From assembly GCA_023512435.1 (NCBI GenBank), contig JAILZP010000007.1:1-64000 (forward strand): a stretch of 64,000 nt of DNA. Reading direction: 5' to 3'. Of this stretch, positions 43,796 to 56,566 are shown piece by piece. This DNA comes from Peptococcaceae bacterium. Its GTDB lineage: Bacteria > Bacillota > Desulfotomaculia > Desulfotomaculales > Desulfocucumaceae. Position 1 is the stretch's first letter. Each line of letters opens with the position of its first letter. Below the pieces are notes generated by a model that saw nothing but the letters and a program-made list of their open reading frames with translations, was not told the DNA's origin and did no database searches. The translations under genes were made by a program, and so were the position numbers.

Positions 43796-44266
43796 ATGCA
43801 AAAGTATATGATTGTCGGCGGCAACCGGCTGCAGGGAAAAGTTAGGGCGAGCGGCAGCAAAAATGCCTCCCTGCCCATACTGGCGGCCTCCCTGCTGGGG
43901 TCCGGGGAAAGTGTCATCCACGACGTGCCGAACCTGAAAGATGTTTCAGTAATGATGGAAGTGCTGCAGTGCCTGGGCGCCGGGATTAGAAGAGAAGGCA
44001 ACACGGTGTGCGTAGACGCGAAAAAAATTGATAACCTGGAAGTAAGCGAAGAACTGATGAGAAAAATGAGGGCTTCCAACCTGGTTCTCGGGCCCTTGCT
44101 GGCCAGGTTTAAGAAGGTGACCATCAGCCATCCGGGCGGGCAGTTTACCTCATTGCATCATTCCGGAGAGCCCGGAGGATTCCAGCCCCTGCGAACATTG
44201 CAGGCCCGCCCCCTGGGGGGAGAAACCGGCGTGAGGCGGGTTTTGTGCTCTTGTCATGATTCTTGA
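43796..44266 (+). pseudogene. murA: murA 5' part, interrupted by the serine-recombinase element
   Basis: Residues 1-115 (43796-44140) are normal UDP-GlcNAc enolpyruvyl transferase: MIVGGNRLQGKVRASGSKNA, RKMRASNLVLGPLLAR and VTISHPGG. The next residue in MurA should be the catalytic Cys (PGGC; Cys115 in E. coli), but the frame runs into the element and adds about 41 unrelated residues before a stop. The matching remainder, starting at PGGCNIGTRPMDLHLKG, is at 49925-50842. Joining the halves at the shared GG gives 417 residues, close to the E. coli length. As it stands this copy encodes only part of domain 1 and should be inactive unless the element excises or the two halves complement. Confidence 0.93.
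44117..44154 (+). other. Left attachment site (attL) of the murA element
   Basis: murA sequence up to GCCATCCG, the putative crossover GG at 44135-44136, then the element arm CGGGCAGTTTACCTCATT (44137-44154). That arm is the imperfect inverted repeat of the right-end arm AATGAGGTGAACTACCCC, 15 of 18 positions matching. Confidence 0.82.
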
Positions 44267-44289
44267 AGGTTTATGTCCGGTCCGCCGGG

Positions 44290-45708
44290 CTAGAAATACA
44301 GGTCCCTCCGGCCCTGTTCAATCATTTTGAGACGGTCCAGGGTCAGCCGGCGGACCTCCGGGCTGGAGATGGCGTCCAGGTGTTCGGCGATGGCTTTCTC
44401 GCCCGCTTCCCGGGTGGCCGGGGAGGCGTAGTCCTCCAGGAACTCCTTAAAGGTGAGGATGGCGTTGGGCTGGCAGACGTTCTGAATTTGCCCGCTTTTG
44501 GCCAGGGCCATGAAACGGTCGCCGGTGCGGCCCCTGCGGTAGCAGGCCGTGCAGAAGCTGGGGATGTGGCCCGAAAGGCAGACGCTGCGCAGCACCTCGT
44601 CGGGACTGCGGTGGTCCTCCACCTGGAACTGGGGGGCCTCCCCGGCGGGGCCGGCGCAGGAGGACTTCCTCTCCTGTTCCAGCCTGTAGCCCCCCACCCC
44701 GGTGCACGACCCCGCGCTGATCTGGGATACCCCCACGGCCATCAGTTCCTCCCTGAACTCCGGCCGCTCCCGGGTGGACAGGATAATGCCGGTGTAGGGA
44801 ACGGCCAGGCGCAAAACGGCGATAATCTTTTTGAAATCGGCATCCCCCACCAGGCATGGGAAGCTGTCGCAGTCCACGCCCTGCGCCGGGCGCAGCCGGG
44901 GCACCGAGACGGTGTGCGGCCCGACGCCGAACTCCTCTTCCAGGTGCAGGGCGTGCGCCAGAATGGCCAGCACCTCGAATTTAAAGTCGTACAGGCCGAA
45001 CAGCACCCCCAGGCCCACATCGTCTATGCCGCCCTCCATGGCCCGGTCCATGGCCGTGGCGTGGTAGTCGTAATCCCGCTTTGGCCCGGCGGGGTGCATG
45101 GCCGCGTAGGTCTCCCGGTGGTATGTTTCCTGGAAAAGTATATAGGTGCCGATGCCCGCTTCCTTTAAGCGGCGGTAGTTTTCCGCCGTGGTGGCGGCGA
45201 TGTTGACATTGACGCGCCGGATGCTGCCGTTTGCTTCCTTTACATCATAAATGGTTTCGATGGCCTCCAGGATGTATTCCATCGGGCAGTTCCGGGGATC
45301 TTCCCCGGCCTCCAGGGCCAGCCGTTTGTGCCCCAGGGACTCCAGCACCTTCACCTCTTCCCTCAGTTCGTCCATGGTCAGCCTCCGCCGGGGAAATTCG
45401 TTGTCCCGGCGGTAGCCGCAGTACACGCAATTGTTCACGCAGTAATTGCTGACATACAGCGGGGCAAACAGGACCAGCCGCCGGCCGTATATCTTTTCTT
45501 TAACCTCCCGGGCCGCCCGGTACATTCCGGCCAGCAGTTCCCCGTCCTCCAGGTGCAGCAGGACGGCGCACTCCCGGAGGGTCAGACCCCCGGCCAGGCG
45601 GGCCCGGTCGATAATCCGCCGGGCCTGTTCCCTGCCTGCAGTGCGGGCCTCCTCCAGCCACCCTTGAATCCGCCCCTCATCGATAAAGTCCGCCCGCATG
45701 GTTTTCAT
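44290..45708 (-). CDS. hydG: HydG, [FeFe]-hydrogenase H-cluster radical SAM maturase
   Basis: 472 residues from the ATG behind AGGAGGTGATT, overlapping the hydE stop by ATGA. The radical SAM cluster motif is C-VNN-C-VY-C. The C-terminal auxiliary cluster has the HydG-specific C-x2-C-x22-C pattern beginning CTACYRRGRTGDRFM, which separates it from ThiH. HydG cleaves tyrosine to give the CO and CN ligands of the H-cluster. All known ligands are present, so it should be functional. It is the last gene of the hydFEG operon and ends 150 bases from the left edge of the element. Confidence 0.95.
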   Translation of the reverse strand: MKTMRADFIDEGRIQGWLEEARTAGREQARRIIDRARLAGGLTLRECAVLLHLEDGELLAGMYRAAREVKEKIYGRRLVLFAPLYVSNYCVNNCVYCGYRRDNEFPRRRLTMDELREEVKVLESLGHKRLALEAGEDPRNCPMEYILEAIETIYDVKEANGSIRRVNVNIAATTAENYRRLKEAGIGTYILFQETYHRETYAAMHPAGPKRDYDYHATAMDRAMEGGIDDVGLGVLFGLYDFKFEVLAILAHALHLEEEFGVGPHTVSVPRLRPAQGVDCDSFPCLVGDADFKKIIAVLRLAVPYTGIILSTRERPEFREELMAVGVSQISAGSCTGVGGYRLEQERKSSCAGPAGEAPQFQVEDHRSPDEVLRSVCLSGHIPSFCTACYRRGRTGDRFMALAKSGQIQNVCQPNAILTFKEFLEDYASPATREAGEKAIAEHLDAISSPEVRRLTLDRLKMIEQGRRDLYF

Positions 45709-46763
45709 GTGCAATCACCTCCTGAAAATTTAATGGCATGGCCGTAATCCCGGGCAACCGGCCGGGCCAGCCCGGCCAGCAGCGCCTTGACGTTCTCCAG
45801 GGCCCGGCGGGGTTCATCCGTGATATCCGCCTTTTGGGGGTAGATGAGGTACCTGTCCCGCACCTCCGGCGGTGTGAAATTGACCATAATCACATTGGCG
45901 CCGCAGGTTAGGGCCGCCTTTCGCCCCCCGGGCGCCAGGGTGCCCAGGGCGGTGGTGGCCGGGAGGTGCGCCCGGGGCAGGCACAGCCTGGCCACGGCCA
46001 GGGTCTTCAGGGTCAGTTCAAGGCTTCCGGCTGCGGCTTCCTTCAGGGGAGTGTCCGGGTGGGGCAAAAAGGGGCCGATGCCGGCCATGTCCGTTTCCAG
46101 TTCGCGCATCAGCAGTATGTCCCCGGCCAGGCTGTCCAGGCTTTGGCCCGGCAGGCCCACCATGTTTCCGGACCCGGCCTGGTAGCCCAGTTCTTTCAGC
46201 CAGTGCAGGCACTCCAGGCGGGCCTGCAGGCTGCTGCCCGGCTTGAGGCATCGAAAAAGCTCTTCATCTGATGTTTCGTGCTTCAGCAGGTAGCGGTCGG
46301 CCCCGGCCTCCCGCCAGATCCTGTAATCTTCACGGCTGCGCTGGCCCAGGGAGAGGGTTACCGCCACGCCCCGCCTGCGCTTGATTTTTTCAACCAGCCC
46401 GGCAATGTACGGGCCGCTGTACAGCGGGTCCTCCCCGGACTGCAGGACCACGGTGCGGAATCCCATGGCCGCCGCCTTATCCACCGCGGACATTATTTCC
46501 CCTTCGTCCAGGCGGTAGCGGGGAAGCCGCCGGTTGTCCCGGCGCAGGCCGCAATACAGGCAGTTGTTGCGGCAGTGGCTGGAGAACTCGATGATCGCCC
46601 GCAGGTGGACGGCATCGCCCACCTTGGCCCGGCGGACCCGGCCGGCGGCCCGGAAAAGGGCGGCAGCCTGGCTGCCCCGGGCCGAAAGAAGGGTGACAAT
46701 ATCCTGCCTGCCCGGTTTTTTCCCATCCAGTACTACTTTCAGGGCGGCGGAAAAACGGTCCAT
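45705..46763 (-). CDS. hydE: HydE, [FeFe]-hydrogenase radical SAM maturase
   Basis: 352 residues. The radical SAM motif C-RNN-C-LY-C is followed by GLRRDNRRLPRYRLDEGEI, a typical HydE stretch, then VLQSGEDPLY and the GNMVGLPGQSLDSLAGDI loop. HydE acts with HydG in building the dithiomethylamine-bridged diiron unit of the H-cluster. BioB and PylB are relatives, but the neighbours HydF and HydG settle the assignment. It starts two bases after the hydF stop. Confidence 0.93.
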   Translation of the reverse strand: MDRFSAALKVVLDGKKPGRQDIVTLLSARGSQAAALFRAAGRVRRAKVGDAVHLRAIIEFSSHCRNNCLYCGLRRDNRRLPRYRLDEGEIMSAVDKAAAMGFRTVVLQSGEDPLYSGPYIAGLVEKIKRRRGVAVTLSLGQRSREDYRIWREAGADRYLLKHETSDEELFRCLKPGSSLQARLECLHWLKELGYQAGSGNMVGLPGQSLDSLAGDILLMRELETDMAGIGPFLPHPDTPLKEAAAGSLELTLKTLAVARLCLPRAHLPATTALGTLAPGGRKAALTCGANVIMVNFTPPEVRDRYLIYPQKADITDEPRRALENVKALLAGLARPVARDYGHAIKFSGGDCT

Positions 46764-46765
46764 GA

Positions 46766-47992
46766 CTATCCAGCCCCGTTTTCGTCCAGCAGCGCCAGCA
46801 TATCCGGGAAGGGCCCCAGGGCGCGCCGCAAAATGCCGTGCAGGCGGGCGATGAGCACTCCGTAGTTGACTATGGGCACTCCGGCGGCCTGGGCGGCCAT
46901 GATCCGGCTGATCATCTCCCGGCGGTTAATCATGCAGGCGCCGCAGTGTATGATTAAGCGGTACCGGGCCAGGTCCCGGGGCAGTTCGATGCCGCTGGAC
47001 CACCCGAAGCGCAGGTCTCCTCCCACCGCCTGCCGCAGCCAGCGGGGGATTTTCACCGTTCCGATGTCGTCGGCCACCCGGTGGTGGGTACAGGCCTCGG
47101 CAATCAGCACCTCGTCGCCGGGCTGAAGGTCTTCCACCGCCAGGGCCCCCCTGACCAGCGTGGCCAGGTCGCCCTTGTAGCGGGCAAAAAGGATGGAAAA
47201 AGAGGTCAGAAGCACCCCGGGGGGTGTGTCCGCGTCCACCTTCGGGAAAGCCTGGGAGTCCGTGATGACCAGGGCCGGGGGTTTTTGCAGCAGGCCGAGG
47301 GCGGCCTTCAGTTCCCGCTCCTTGACCACCATGGCCAGGCAGTCGTGGTCCAGCAGGTCCCGGATGGTCTGCACCTGGGGCAGGATCAGCCTGCCCCGGG
47401 GGGCGGCCAGGTCGATGGGCACCACCAGCAGCGCAAGTTCTCCGGGGGGCACCAGGTCGCCGGCAATGGTGGGGGCGGTCCAATCCTTGGGGGCGACCCT
47501 GATCATGGCCTGCTTCAGGTCGGCAATGCCACGGCGGGTCAGGGCGCTGACCCTCACCCAGGGTATTGGGGGGAGGGAGGAACCGGAATCTTGGCGGTCC
47601 GGCGGCAGGTCGGTTTTGTTCAATACCCCGATTACCGGTATATTCCTCTCCCCGGCCGCGTCAATGATACCCCTTTCCACTTCGCCGGGGCCGGTCCGGT
47701 GGTCCGCCACCAGCAGCGCCAGGTCGGTTTTGTCCAGCACCGCCAAACTTTTGGCCACCCTCAGGCTCCCCAGTTCCCCGGTGTCGTCCAGGCCCGCCGT
47801 GTCGATCAGGACCACCGGGCCGATGGGCAGGATTTCCATGGACTTGTACACCGGGTCGGTGGTGGTGCCGGCCACCGGCGAAACAATGGCCACCTCCTGC
47901 CCGGTGAGGGCGTTGATCAGGCTGGACTTGCCGGCGTTGCGCCGCCCGAAGATGGCGATGTGCAGCCTTGATCCGCGGGGTGTGTCATGCAC
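46766..47992 (-). CDS. hydF: HydF, GTPase scaffold for [FeFe]-hydrogenase maturation
   Basis: 408 residues from GTG with GGGGAGG upstream. The N-terminal Era-like GTPase has G1 GRRNAGKSSLIN (about residue 15), SPVAGTTTDPVYK, DTAGLDD and LNKTDL. The C-terminal iron-sulfur domain shows the diagnostic CTHH (CxH) and HCGAC (HCxxC) ligands. HydF carries the diiron precursor built by HydE and HydG and delivers it to the hydrogenase. It is the first gene of a three-gene minus-strand operon with its own promoter region, so the element carries the whole maturation set. No hydrogenase structural gene is in the window. Confidence 0.95.
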   Translation of the reverse strand: MHDTPRGSRLHIAIFGRRNAGKSSLINALTGQEVAIVSPVAGTTTDPVYKSMEILPIGPVVLIDTAGLDDTGELGSLRVAKSLAVLDKTDLALLVADHRTGPGEVERGIIDAAGERNIPVIGVLNKTDLPPDRQDSGSSLPPIPWVRVSALTRRGIADLKQAMIRVAPKDWTAPTIAGDLVPPGELALLVVPIDLAAPRGRLILPQVQTIRDLLDHDCLAMVVKERELKAALGLLQKPPALVITDSQAFPKVDADTPPGVLLTSFSILFARYKGDLATLVRGALAVEDLQPGDEVLIAEACTHHRVADDIGTVKIPRWLRQAVGGDLRFGWSSGIELPRDLARYRLIIHCGACMINRREMISRIMAAQAAGVPIVNYGVLIARLHGILRRALGPFPDMLALLDENGAG

Positions 47993-48047
47993 CGTTCCCG
48001 CCTCCCCGGCCGGGGTCCTTTTTCAGCCGGCCTTTTCTACCTGTATA

Positions 48048-48079
48048 ATTATATAAATTAAAGTGATCATTTATCACAA
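48048..48079 (-). promoter_or_regulatory. hydFEG promoter with overlapping palindromic operator
   Basis: On the minus strand TTGTGA (48074-48079) and TATAAT (48048-48053) are separated by 20 bases, longer than ideal. A perfect inverted repeat GTGAT-CATTT-ATCAC (48063-48077) overlaps the -35, the place expected for a regulator of the CRP/FNR type or a repressor. Confidence 0.55.
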
Positions 48080-48193
48080 AATCCCGGTTTATGACTTTGC
48101 CGGCCTTTACTCCGGGGAATGATACCGGGGTTTTATTTTTCATCGGACAATCATCCTCTACATATATTTACAAAAAACAAAGGATGACCGGGG

Positions 48194-48433
48194 ATGAAGC
48201 AGGGCGGCAAAAAAAAGGAATTTATTGTCAGGCATCACTGGAAGAATGGAAGATTCTCAGCCGAAAAATTTAAAAAGGCGCTTGAACAGATATTTGACCA
48301 CTGGCTGCTGTCGGAGGAAGGCCGGGATCCGGAACCGGGCGGCCTGAAAGCCGGAAAAACCGATCTTGAAAAAGACGGGGGGTTCCCAGCCGATGGGGAT
48401 AAAAGCGGGATACGTGAGGCTCTCCCGGGATGA
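48194..48433 (+). CDS. Small basic protein overlapping the recombinase gene (candidate directionality factor)
   Basis: 79 residues from an ATG preceded by AGGATGACCGGGG. The product has a Lys-rich N-terminus (MKQGGKKKEFIVRHHWKNG) and one clear helix (SAEKFKKALEQIFDHWLLSE), then a charged tail. It overlaps the recombinase start by 41 bases in another frame, so the two are probably cotranscribed and translationally coupled. Serine integrases need a small recombination directionality factor to excise; its size, charge and position make it a candidate, but no family similarity is recognised. Confidence 0.5.
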   Translation: MKQGGKKKEFIVRHHWKNGRFSAEKFKKALEQIFDHWLLSEEGRDPEPGGLKAGKTDLEKDGGFPADGDKSGIREALPG

Positions 48434-49889
48434 GGACGGGCAAAGTGAAAGCATAGAAGGCCAAAAGACGGTAATTGCACATTATTACAGGAACGTGCTG
48501 CATTACACGGGGGAAATAGTCTTCTTCGTTGACGACAACTGCAGCGGGATGAATTTTGACCGGCCGGACTTTCAAAGGATGAGAAGGGAAGCCCTGAACA
48601 ACAACCTGGATATCGTGGTTTTCAAAGACCTGTCCAGATTCGGCCGGGACAGCGCGGATACCCAGAAGTACTGGAAGGAGTTTGTCCTCAAGTGCGGTGT
48701 GAGACTGATTGCCGCCTCGCAAAACCAGGACTCCCTGGACAGGCACACCAGGAAGACCCTTGGCCTTTACGCCTGGCTCAACGAACAGTACGTGGAGGAC
48801 ATATCGGAAAAAATCCTGGAGAATTTCAGGTCCAGGCAGAAAAAAGGGGATTTGATCATTACGGTCCCGTACGGCTATGTAAAACGGGGGAAATCGGTCA
48901 GCGTCGACGAATTCGCGGCGGAGACGGTAAAAAGGATATTTAGTCTTTACCTGGCCGGGTACGGGTATAAAAAGATCGCCTCAATCATGAATGCGGAGGG
49001 AATACTGACGCCCTCGGCGTATAAAAACCGGTCCGGCGCACTGCCGGCGTGGAGCTTTCAGGCGGTGAAAAATATTTTGACCAATGAGTTTTACACCGGC
49101 GTCCTGCTGCAGGGGAAAACTTATAAGAAAGAAATAAAAGGCAGGTCTTTCCGCACCCCCCCCGACCGGGTGCTGAAATTTCCCGGCCACCATGAAGCCA
49201 TTATTGACAGGGAGGTTTTCGACCTGGTCCAGGAGACCCTCAAGGACAGAAAAAAAAGGTCGTTCAGGGGTGCAAAGATCACTGCTCCCCGCCTTTTCTC
49301 GGGAAAGATAGTTTGTGAGAAGTGCAAAAAGACATACCTGTTCAAATCCAGGAGAAAAGGCGGCCCCGGATATTATATTTGCGGAACGCGCTACAAGTAC
49401 GGCCCGGAATACTGCAAGAACATCACCATCCCCGAGAACAGGCTTGCCGGATTGATCCGGGAACAATTGAGAGAAAAGACGGATGAGAACAGGGAAGTGT
49501 TGCCGGAACTTAAAAGCAGGGCCGGCAGGCGGCCGCACTACGGAAAGACAGACATGGTCATCGCCAGGATAAGAAAGGAAATAGAAAAAAGGGAAAACAC
49601 GCTTAAAAAAATATACCTGGACAGACTTGAGGCCAGAACCGGGTTCCCCGAATACCTGCTGGAACAGCTTATCAGCCGGACGTCCTCGGAGATAGACAGT
49701 CTAAGGCGGCAGCTGGAGTCGGCAACGGCCGCCCGTGACGCTTCCGCGGACCGGCGGGAAGCGCCGGAAGACCTGGACGGAAAACTGCTGAGATTTATTA
49801 ACAGGCCGCTGGCCCGGAAGGACGTAGAGATTTTTATAAAAGAAATCAGGATTGACGGCGGGATAATCGACGTATACTGGAATATATAA
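48393..49889 (+). CDS. Large serine recombinase
   Basis: 498 residues from the ATG behind GGGGGG; an upstream TTG at 48366 is possible. The N-terminal resolvase domain has the catalytic Ser in GYVRLSRDED (about residue 10) and the DLSRFGRDSADTQKY motif. A recombinase domain follows (VPYGYVKRGKSVSVDEFAAE, then IASIMNAEGILTPSAYKNRSG), then a zinc ribbon (CEKCKKTYLFKSRRKGG with later Cys residues) and a coiled-coil segment (IRKEIEKRENTLKKIYLDRL). This is the TnpX/Ccr/integrase architecture. The gene ends 20 bases before the right attachment arm, as usual for integrases next to their attP. Base composition looks lower in GC than the surrounding mur genes. Confidence 0.93.
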   Translation: MGIKAGYVRLSRDEDGQSESIEGQKTVIAHYYRNVLHYTGEIVFFVDDNCSGMNFDRPDFQRMRREALNNNLDIVVFKDLSRFGRDSADTQKYWKEFVLKCGVRLIAASQNQDSLDRHTRKTLGLYAWLNEQYVEDISEKILENFRSRQKKGDLIITVPYGYVKRGKSVSVDEFAAETVKRIFSLYLAGYGYKKIASIMNAEGILTPSAYKNRSGALPAWSFQAVKNILTNEFYTGVLLQGKTYKKEIKGRSFRTPPDRVLKFPGHHEAIIDREVFDLVQETLKDRKKRSFRGAKITAPRLFSGKIVCEKCKKTYLFKSRRKGGPGYYICGTRYKYGPEYCKNITIPENRLAGLIREQLREKTDENREVLPELKSRAGRRPHYGKTDMVIARIRKEIEKRENTLKKIYLDRLEARTGFPEYLLEQLISRTSSEIDSLRRQLESATAARDASADRREAPEDLDGKLLRFINRPLARKDVEIFIKEIRIDGGIIDVYWNI

Positions 49890-49900
49890 GGAAAAGATCC

Positions 49901-50842
49901 GTGGCGGCCAATGAGGTGAACTACCCCGGGGGATGCAACATCGGGACCAGGCCCATGGACCTGCACCTGAAAGGGCTCCAGCGCATGGGGGCCGTCATTT
50001 CGGAAAGATACGGCTACATCACGGCGGAGAGCCGGGTGCTGACCGGGGCCGAGATTTACCTGGATATGCCCAGCGTGGGGGCCACGGAAAATTTGATGAT
50101 GGCGGCGGTGCTGGCCAGGGGGACCACCATGATTAAAAACGCCGCCAAGGAGCCCGAGATAGTGGATTTGCAGAATTTTCTCAACCGCTTGGGAGCCGAC
50201 ATAAAAGGGGCCGGTACGGACGTAATCAAGATCAGAGGAGTGGAATCCCTGGGCACCGCGGAACACACGGTTATTCCGGACCGGATTGAGGCCGGGACTT
50301 TCATGGTGGCCGCGGCCATGACCGGCGGTGATGTGGTGATCACAAATGTCATTCCCGAGCATTTCGAGGCGGTGACGGCTAAGCTGAGGGAGGCCGGGGT
50401 GGAAATCACGGTGGGGGACGGCCAGGTCAGGGTAAGGGGAAATCCGCCCTACAGGTCGGTGGATGTCAGGACCCTGCCCTATCCCGGTTTTCCCACCGAC
50501 ATGCAGCCCCAGTTCATGGCCATGATGTCGGTGGCCCGGGGAACCAGCATAATCACCGAGACCATATTTGAAAACAGGTTCAAGCACGTCAGCGAGCTCC
50601 GGCGGATGGGGGCCGACATAAAGGTGGAGGGCCAGACCACCATCATCAAGGGAGTTTCCAAGCTCAGCGGGGCGGTGGTGGAGGCGTCCGACCTGAGGGC
50701 CGGGGCGGCCCTGATCCTGGCGGCCCTGGTGGCCGAGAACGGAACCGTGGTTGAAAACATAGATCACATCGACCGGGGCTACGACCGCCTGGAAAACAAA
50801 TTCGGATCACTGGGGGCAAGAATAATCAGAGTGCACAGTTGA
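49901..50842 (+). pseudogene. murA: murA 3' part with the catalytic cysteine
   Basis: From codon 49934 (Cys) to the stop, 302 residues of MurA: CNIGTRPMDLHLKG, SVGATENLMMAAVLA, PEIVDLQNFL, TVIPDRIEAGTFMVAAAM and the C-terminal RMGADIKVEG and DLRAGAALILAAL. Eleven extra residues come from the element side, ending PGG. A GTG with AAGGA seven bases upstream could allow translation of this half alone, so a split enzyme is conceivable. The half ends with an ordinary MurA C-terminus. After excision it continues in frame from the 5' part without any base change. Confidence 0.92.
49910..49947 (+). other. Right attachment site (attR) of the murA element
   Basis: Element arm AATGAGGTGAACTACCCC (49910-49927), core GG (49928-49929), then murA sequence GGGATGCAACATCGGG. 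Together with the left arm it reconstructs a 38-bp near-palindromic attP centred on GG. Confidence 0.82.
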
Positions 50843-56274: not shown

Positions 56275-56566
56275 ATTGCATGTGCGTTGAAGACCCGGAA
56301 CGGGGACCCTCCGGCAAATAGCGTGTATTGTGGGTTAATTACCGGGCTATAGCCGGAAATTGCCGGCAGAAAAAAATATGGCGGAACAAATAGTGACAGA
56401 TATTTCCAGTCCTGGCGTATATAATTAATGCCAGGGCTGCTTTGTTGGGCTTGTATAAGTTACTGGAAAGAAATCTATGCCCAGGTTCAGATAAACTGCT
56501 TGTCATATATAAGGAACCGGGGCCATATACTGGTGGGAGAGCCCTTACTTTCCGGAGGTGCCCTTA

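Follow-up and report, generated by a model that had tools for sequence, protein, structure and literature searches.

The findings presented here suggest that a redundant murA gene of this Peptococcaceae bacterium probably harbours a small, non-phage, site-specific integrative element with a metabolic cargo, which would be excisable in principle. The sequence analysed (the window) comprised 64,000 nucleotides of a 106.8-kb contig (C12) from a draft genome of 3.18 Mb, 80 contigs and 88% completeness. In it, the murA gene of the division/cell-wall cluster (murA1) was interrupted by 5,793 bp after codon 115, one codon before the catalytic residue of MurA1. The split gene and its junctions comprised the following features:

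43796..44140, + strand, murA1 5′ part (codons 1-115), ending in ...TISHPGG; Pfam EPSP_synthase positions 3-105
44117..44154, + strand, putative attL, 18+2+18 bp around the core GG at 44135-44136, the core being placed by attP symmetry
44135..49927, + strand, integrated element, 5,793 bp, taken as the distance between the cores
49910..49947, + strand, putative attR, 18+2+18 bp around the core GG at 49928-49929, placed by attP symmetry and by the corresponding arm in the sister species
49930..50842, + strand, murA1 3′ part, resuming at G-G-Cys with the catalytic Cys116 of the rejoined protein

The murA1 5′ frame ran 41 codons into the element up to a TGA at 44264-44266, while the C-terminal 302 codons occupied positions 49934-50839, with the stop at 50842. 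When the halves were joined at the GG core, the sequence CCG-GGG-GGA-TGC was obtained and a 417-residue MurA was read in frame with no stops. The initial annotation had described a murA split by a precisely excisable 5.8-kb element, the first 115 residues ending in HPGG and the rest resuming at PGG-CNIGTRPM, and these coordinates, the joint and the length of the rejoined protein were all reproduced. An exact rejoining that keeps the host gene in frame, as read here from the sequence, is also a property of the gene-intervening elements of sporulation. The predicted junction of the restored murA is AGCCATCCGGGGGGATGCAAC.

In order to place the crossover, all possible dinucleotide cores were scored. 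The best was GG, at 44135-44136 and 49928-49929, and the attP reconstituted from it, AATGAGGTGAACTACCCC-GG-CGGGCAGTTTACCTCATT, formed an inverted repeat centred on GG that was the most symmetric of all. Its arms, AATGAGGTGAACTACCCC and AATGAGGTAAACTGCCCG, were complementary at 15 out of 18 positions, which only one of 200,000 position pairs drawn at random from the window attained, so that the junctions lie well outside chance expectation. The predicted junction of the circular form is GAACTACCCCGGCGGGCAGTTTACC. A dinucleotide common to attL and attR, symmetric attP arms and an uninterrupted attB in relatives (see below) are features of large serine recombinase elements, and the ends of the element behave as the attL and attR of such an enzyme.

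The contents of the element had not been described in the initial annotation. Five genes were found within it: hydG, hydE, hydF, a 79-residue ORF (ORF79) and a recombinase gene. They are listed here with the signals between them:

44290..45714, − strand, hydG, [FeFe] hydrogenase H-cluster radical SAM maturase; TIGR03955, 650.8 bits (cut-off 312)
45705..46763, − strand, hydE, [FeFe] hydrogenase H-cluster radical SAM maturase; TIGR03956, 342 bits (cut-off 254.6)
46766..47992, − strand, hydF, [FeFe] hydrogenase maturation GTPase; TIGR03918, 572 bits (cut-off 325.6)
48048..48077, − strand, candidate sigma-70-like promoter for hydFEG, GTGATA-18-TATAAT, from a consensus scan
48105..48135, + strand, short hairpin with a trailing T-rich run, located upstream of the module of ORF79 and recombinase, from alignment and RNA folding
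48140..48168, + strand, weak sigma-E-like box, TCATCGG-14-CATATATT, chosen after the fact; the sister species has it too
48194..48433, + strand, ORF79, 79 residues, 55% identical in the sister species, with no family match
48366..49889, + strand, large serine recombinase, 507 residues from a TTG start, with Resolvase, Recombinase and zinc-ribbon domains

The three hyd assignments rest on NCBIfam equivalogs with their own cut-offs. The hydFEG promoter candidate is weak, since the scan returned three matches in the region when 1.9 were expected. The hairpin was also present in the sister species, and RNA folding gave -10.9 and -14.0 kcal/mol. The recombinase gene, which contained an in-frame ATG at 48393, was intact, with all three domains encoded on a single protein; the right core lay 39 bp from its end. 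ORF79 had no homologues near other recombinases and its AlphaFold2 model was of low confidence; its size, position and conservation make it a candidate recombination directionality factor. None of the five genes was a phage structural or replication gene, as a prophage would carry, and neither relaxase nor conjugation genes, which mark integrative conjugative or mobilizable elements, were present among them. Since the element holds no genes for leaving the cell, it has to depend on some other route of transfer.

The recombinase matched TnpX in a PDB search, TndX in plasmids (28% identity) and Ccr models. The enzymes of Tn4451/Tn5397-type elements (TnpX/TndX) and of SCC elements (Ccr) are therefore the closest named recombinases by sequence, although the cargo and target of those elements differ. 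Assignment to an SCC element was rejected, with scores of 97, 79 and 70 bits against CcrA/B/C cut-offs of 700-900. The fdxN element of heterocystous cyanobacteria is alike in being a serine recombinase element within a metabolic gene, but the recombinase scored 79.3 bits with its XisF model, against a cut-off of 375.

Regarding the cargo, the element's hydEFG genes were the only copies detected in the genome, a statement that is provisional because the draft is 88% complete. For hydF, the whole-genome search returned the element's gene as the only full-length copy, the other matches being general GTPases. A single [FeFe] hydrogenase gene (PF02906, group A6) was found, and it lay outside the element, so that the maturation genes required by this enzyme appear to reside on the element. 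A cell that lost the element should then forfeit hydrogenase activity, and selection should act to keep the element in place. Among the other genomes of the family, G002 and G006 had [FeFe] hydrogenase genes and no HydF match, possibly reflecting incomplete genomes or maturation supplied otherwise.

The search for a second murA proposed by the initial annotation was carried out and revealed an intact gene (murA2) on contig C63. It encodes 416 residues with a GGCAIG motif, in which GGC is catalytic, and lies in the order atpA-atpG-atpD-atpC-murA-spoIID-spoIIID-mbl/mreB (names other than murA and spoIIID come from reading the translations). Its product shared 75-84% identity with the equivalent paralogue in other members of the family, and 57% with MurA1. 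Loss of murA1 should therefore be survivable, and its splitting need not stop wall synthesis. This gives direct support to the earlier suggestion that the insertion is tolerated through another murA. A wall gene is indeed split, as the initial annotation described, but with murA2 present murA1 may not be essential.

We then compared the locus with its relatives. An uninterrupted murA of this type was found in five of six other family members (G002, G003, G005, G006 and G007), while the sixth, G004, gave no match close enough for this paralogue. Across the order, 105 of 113 genomes had the matching murA, and an internal split was confined to two species, the present one and its sister species, Desulfovirgula sp. 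isolate Tomsk_2_57_21 (hereafter Tomsk), the only other genome of the genus compared; the few other short murA frames lay at contig ends. Two further genomes of the order each carried a murA with one in-frame TAA inside the match (G087:C6:29499-30401 and G088:C31:48435-49340).

In Tomsk, murC-murB-murA(1-83) ended at a contig end, and another contig carried a small ORF homologous to ORF79, the recombinase gene and the corresponding att arm (AATGAGGTAAGTTATCCC-GG), followed by the 3′ part of murA, a gene for a TPR protein and ftsQ. The right junction fell on the same base as here at the DNA level, and the recombinases were 78% identical. The contig bearing the 5′ half stopped 96 bp before the core, leaving the left junction unassembled, and no convincing match to a left att arm was found. 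Decayed att arms in a related strain with the same split had been named as a sign against a working switch; instead, the right arm and recombinase of Tomsk were intact. The TPR-protein gene, on the opposite strand between murA and ftsQ (L087:3737-4414, contig C136), was absent from the window.

Outside the genus, searches of GTDB contigs, viral contigs and the order's 113 genomes found no close relatives of the recombinase, and the next best matches were 31-34% identical. One recombinase from another family of the order (32% identity) lay about 5 kb from hydEFG (G030:C1:198000-217000, L071), beside TnpB-like and thymidylate-synthase-like genes named from reading their translations. No murA 3′ half was confirmed in viral contigs, and phage records gave distant MurA matches alone, nearly all of which, among the 20 listed, spanned the whole query.

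The DNA beside the Tomsk recombinase was different, with candidate RecD-like and YdjM-like fragments (read from the translation), and the Tomsk hydEFG genes were located at a hydrogenase locus. Homology to them set in a short distance upstream of hydF and went no further than where hydG ends. Between the two species, dS was mostly 0.54-0.95 for the wall-cluster genes and hydA, with 0.73 for the murA 3′ half, and 0.31-0.36 for hydEFG, about half as much. Values this low indicate that the two lineages probably came to share hydEFG later than the species split, as expected for mobile cargo.

The recombinase gene itself had a dS of 1.17, and its divergence at four-fold sites was similar to that of host genes. 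Of its 42 G/C-A/T differences, 40 ran one way, and the GC content at four-fold sites was 0.76 in one species against 0.47 in the other. This contrast makes simple common inheritance doubtful and repeated arrival at one attB as likely; the composition would suit either two independent arrivals or amelioration that was very unequal. The proposal of a recent integration needs qualifying: the integration is supported, whereas 'recent' is not simply right, given that Tomsk is split at the same base and that its recombinase differs at 22% of residues. Constraint was strong throughout, with dN/dS of about 0.11 for the recombinase and about 0.10 and 0.06 for the murA halves.

Altogether, these data are best accounted for by a large serine recombinase that would have recombined a circular form, through its attP, into an attB of murA1 located at the Gly codons that precede the catalytic Cys. 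Serine integrases produce such an arrangement from attP and attB by the recombinase alone, and excision normally needs a directionality factor. The same recombinase could in principle reverse the integration, possibly with ORF79 as that factor. In the assembled state murA1 is disrupted, murA2 would supply the enzyme, and the element-borne hydEFG would mature the one detected [FeFe] hydrogenase of the cell, which may be what retains the element. With a murA2 paralogue present, this passive explanation is sufficient. The strong constraint on the murA halves speaks against it, being more than a merely tolerated break requires, although a young insertion would look alike.

The initial annotation had also raised the idea of a switch that turns MurA on by excision. 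As in skin or gin, a recombinase expressed under sigma-E in the mother cell, together with ORF79, would excise the element and rebuild MurA1 for the spore wall or cortex; losing hydEFG would then be harmless, since the mother cell dies. We regard this developmental reading as a minority possibility. The layout resembles that of skinCd, in which the recombinase adjoins the 3′ half and the small directionality factor has 72 residues (PMC5025042), and the element is non-phage, like gin (PMC5595907). The genome contains spoIVA and spoIIID, and the murA1 locus lies near spoVD-, spoVE-type and spoIIGA-sigE-sigG-type genes (named from reading translations). Upstream of ORF79 both species carry the box, TCATCGG-14-CATATATT here and TCATCGG-15-CATATATT in Tomsk, which may be compared with TAATATT-13-CATATATA at spoIVA of both genomes. 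However, the box was picked post hoc and its -35 fits at 4 of 7 positions only; the strict pattern occurred three times, and a looser one 20 times, over 128 kb of strand, which puts the chance for a 370-bp upstream region at about 1-6%. Another sigma-E-like box, TCATATA-14-CATATACT, was seen at window positions 56503-56531, just upstream of a spoIIGA-like gene at 56558, and a similar one precedes the Tomsk homologue (L087:10389).

Selection on murA1 bears on the same question. The dN ratio of the murA 3′ half to murC was about 0.54 here and 0.51-0.61 in intact relatives, so that murA1 is constrained here as it is where it is uninterrupted, which favours a switch. In Tomsk the ratio was about 1.2, roughly twice that expected (p = 0.035, marginal and from approximate counts), a hint of relaxed use. 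Moreover, no excised form was seen among the viral contigs searched for the attP circle, and no published sporulation role of a third MurA was found. The sporulation genes, the conserved box and the constrained halves lend the switch indirect support, but a regulated sporulation switch seems rather unlikely. Somewhat more doubtful still is a domesticated switch particular to this lineage: excision in the mother cell would rebuild MurA1 for spore wall synthesis and discard hydEFG, so that vegetative H2 metabolism and a sporulation-phase wall enzyme would be alternative states of the one locus. The faster Tomsk 3′ half and the presence of murA2 would also suit a dead insertion, with murA1 as a broken paralogue heading for loss and the element kept solely for hydEFG; this is improbable, as neither half has a frameshift or stop in either species, and the att arms and the constrained recombinase are intact. 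An assembly chimera might be suspected in a metagenome-derived draft of 80 contigs, but both junctions lie inside one contig and fit one symmetric attP, and the right junction recurs in the separately assembled Tomsk genome, making such an error very unlikely. It is equally hard to credit that the halves are translated independently and associate into a functional enzyme with no need for excision. Both are open and constrained, and translation of the 3′ half could begin at a GTG at 49901, yet the break falls in the catalytic loop and the 5′ product would bear 41 foreign residues. To our knowledge, a two-chain MurA split in this way has no precedent.

The integrative element that we favour has counterparts among serine recombinase elements already known to split and restore genes, namely skin, SPbeta, gin and yin. 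The gin element in gerE of Bacillus cereus ATCC 10987 is likewise non-phage, with a serine recombinase and a small factor (here the candidate ORF79), a symmetric attP on a central dinucleotide and in-frame gene restoration, but it measures 28.6 kb, has three recombinases and has been shown to excise in sporulation (PMC5595907). The element described here, known from sequence alone, has 5.8 kb, one recombinase, a hydEFG cargo and a wall enzyme as target. In skinCd, within sigK of Clostridioides difficile, the recombinase gene also immediately precedes the 3′ portion of the interrupted gene, and the element contains a small factor gene, as ORF79 may be here; unlike our element, skinCd is prophage-like, with 19 genes, a sigma-factor target and a proven directionality factor under sigma-E and SpoIIID (PMC5025042). 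Such directionality factors are known from skinCd (CD1234, 72 residues; PMC5025042) and from gin (GirX; PMC5595907). The SPbeta prophage in spsM of Bacillus subtilis shares insertion by a serine recombinase and precise excision that restores the host gene, but it is a large active prophage in a spore-envelope gene (PMC4191935).

The mechanism is known, while the target (murA) and the cargo (hydEFG) appear to be new. Within a partial coverage of the literature, we found no published description of murA as an attB, as the initial annotation had supposed, and no report of hydEFG as cargo of such elements. If the element moves, a core wall enzyme would join sporulation regulators as a target of gene-splitting recombinase elements, the element would be a minimal natural unit in which an attP and a single recombinase go with a metabolic operon of three genes, and hydEFG would have a route to spread apart from the hydrogenase gene. 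With the gene split at the same base in two species, whether the element is a passenger or a switch can be tested directly.
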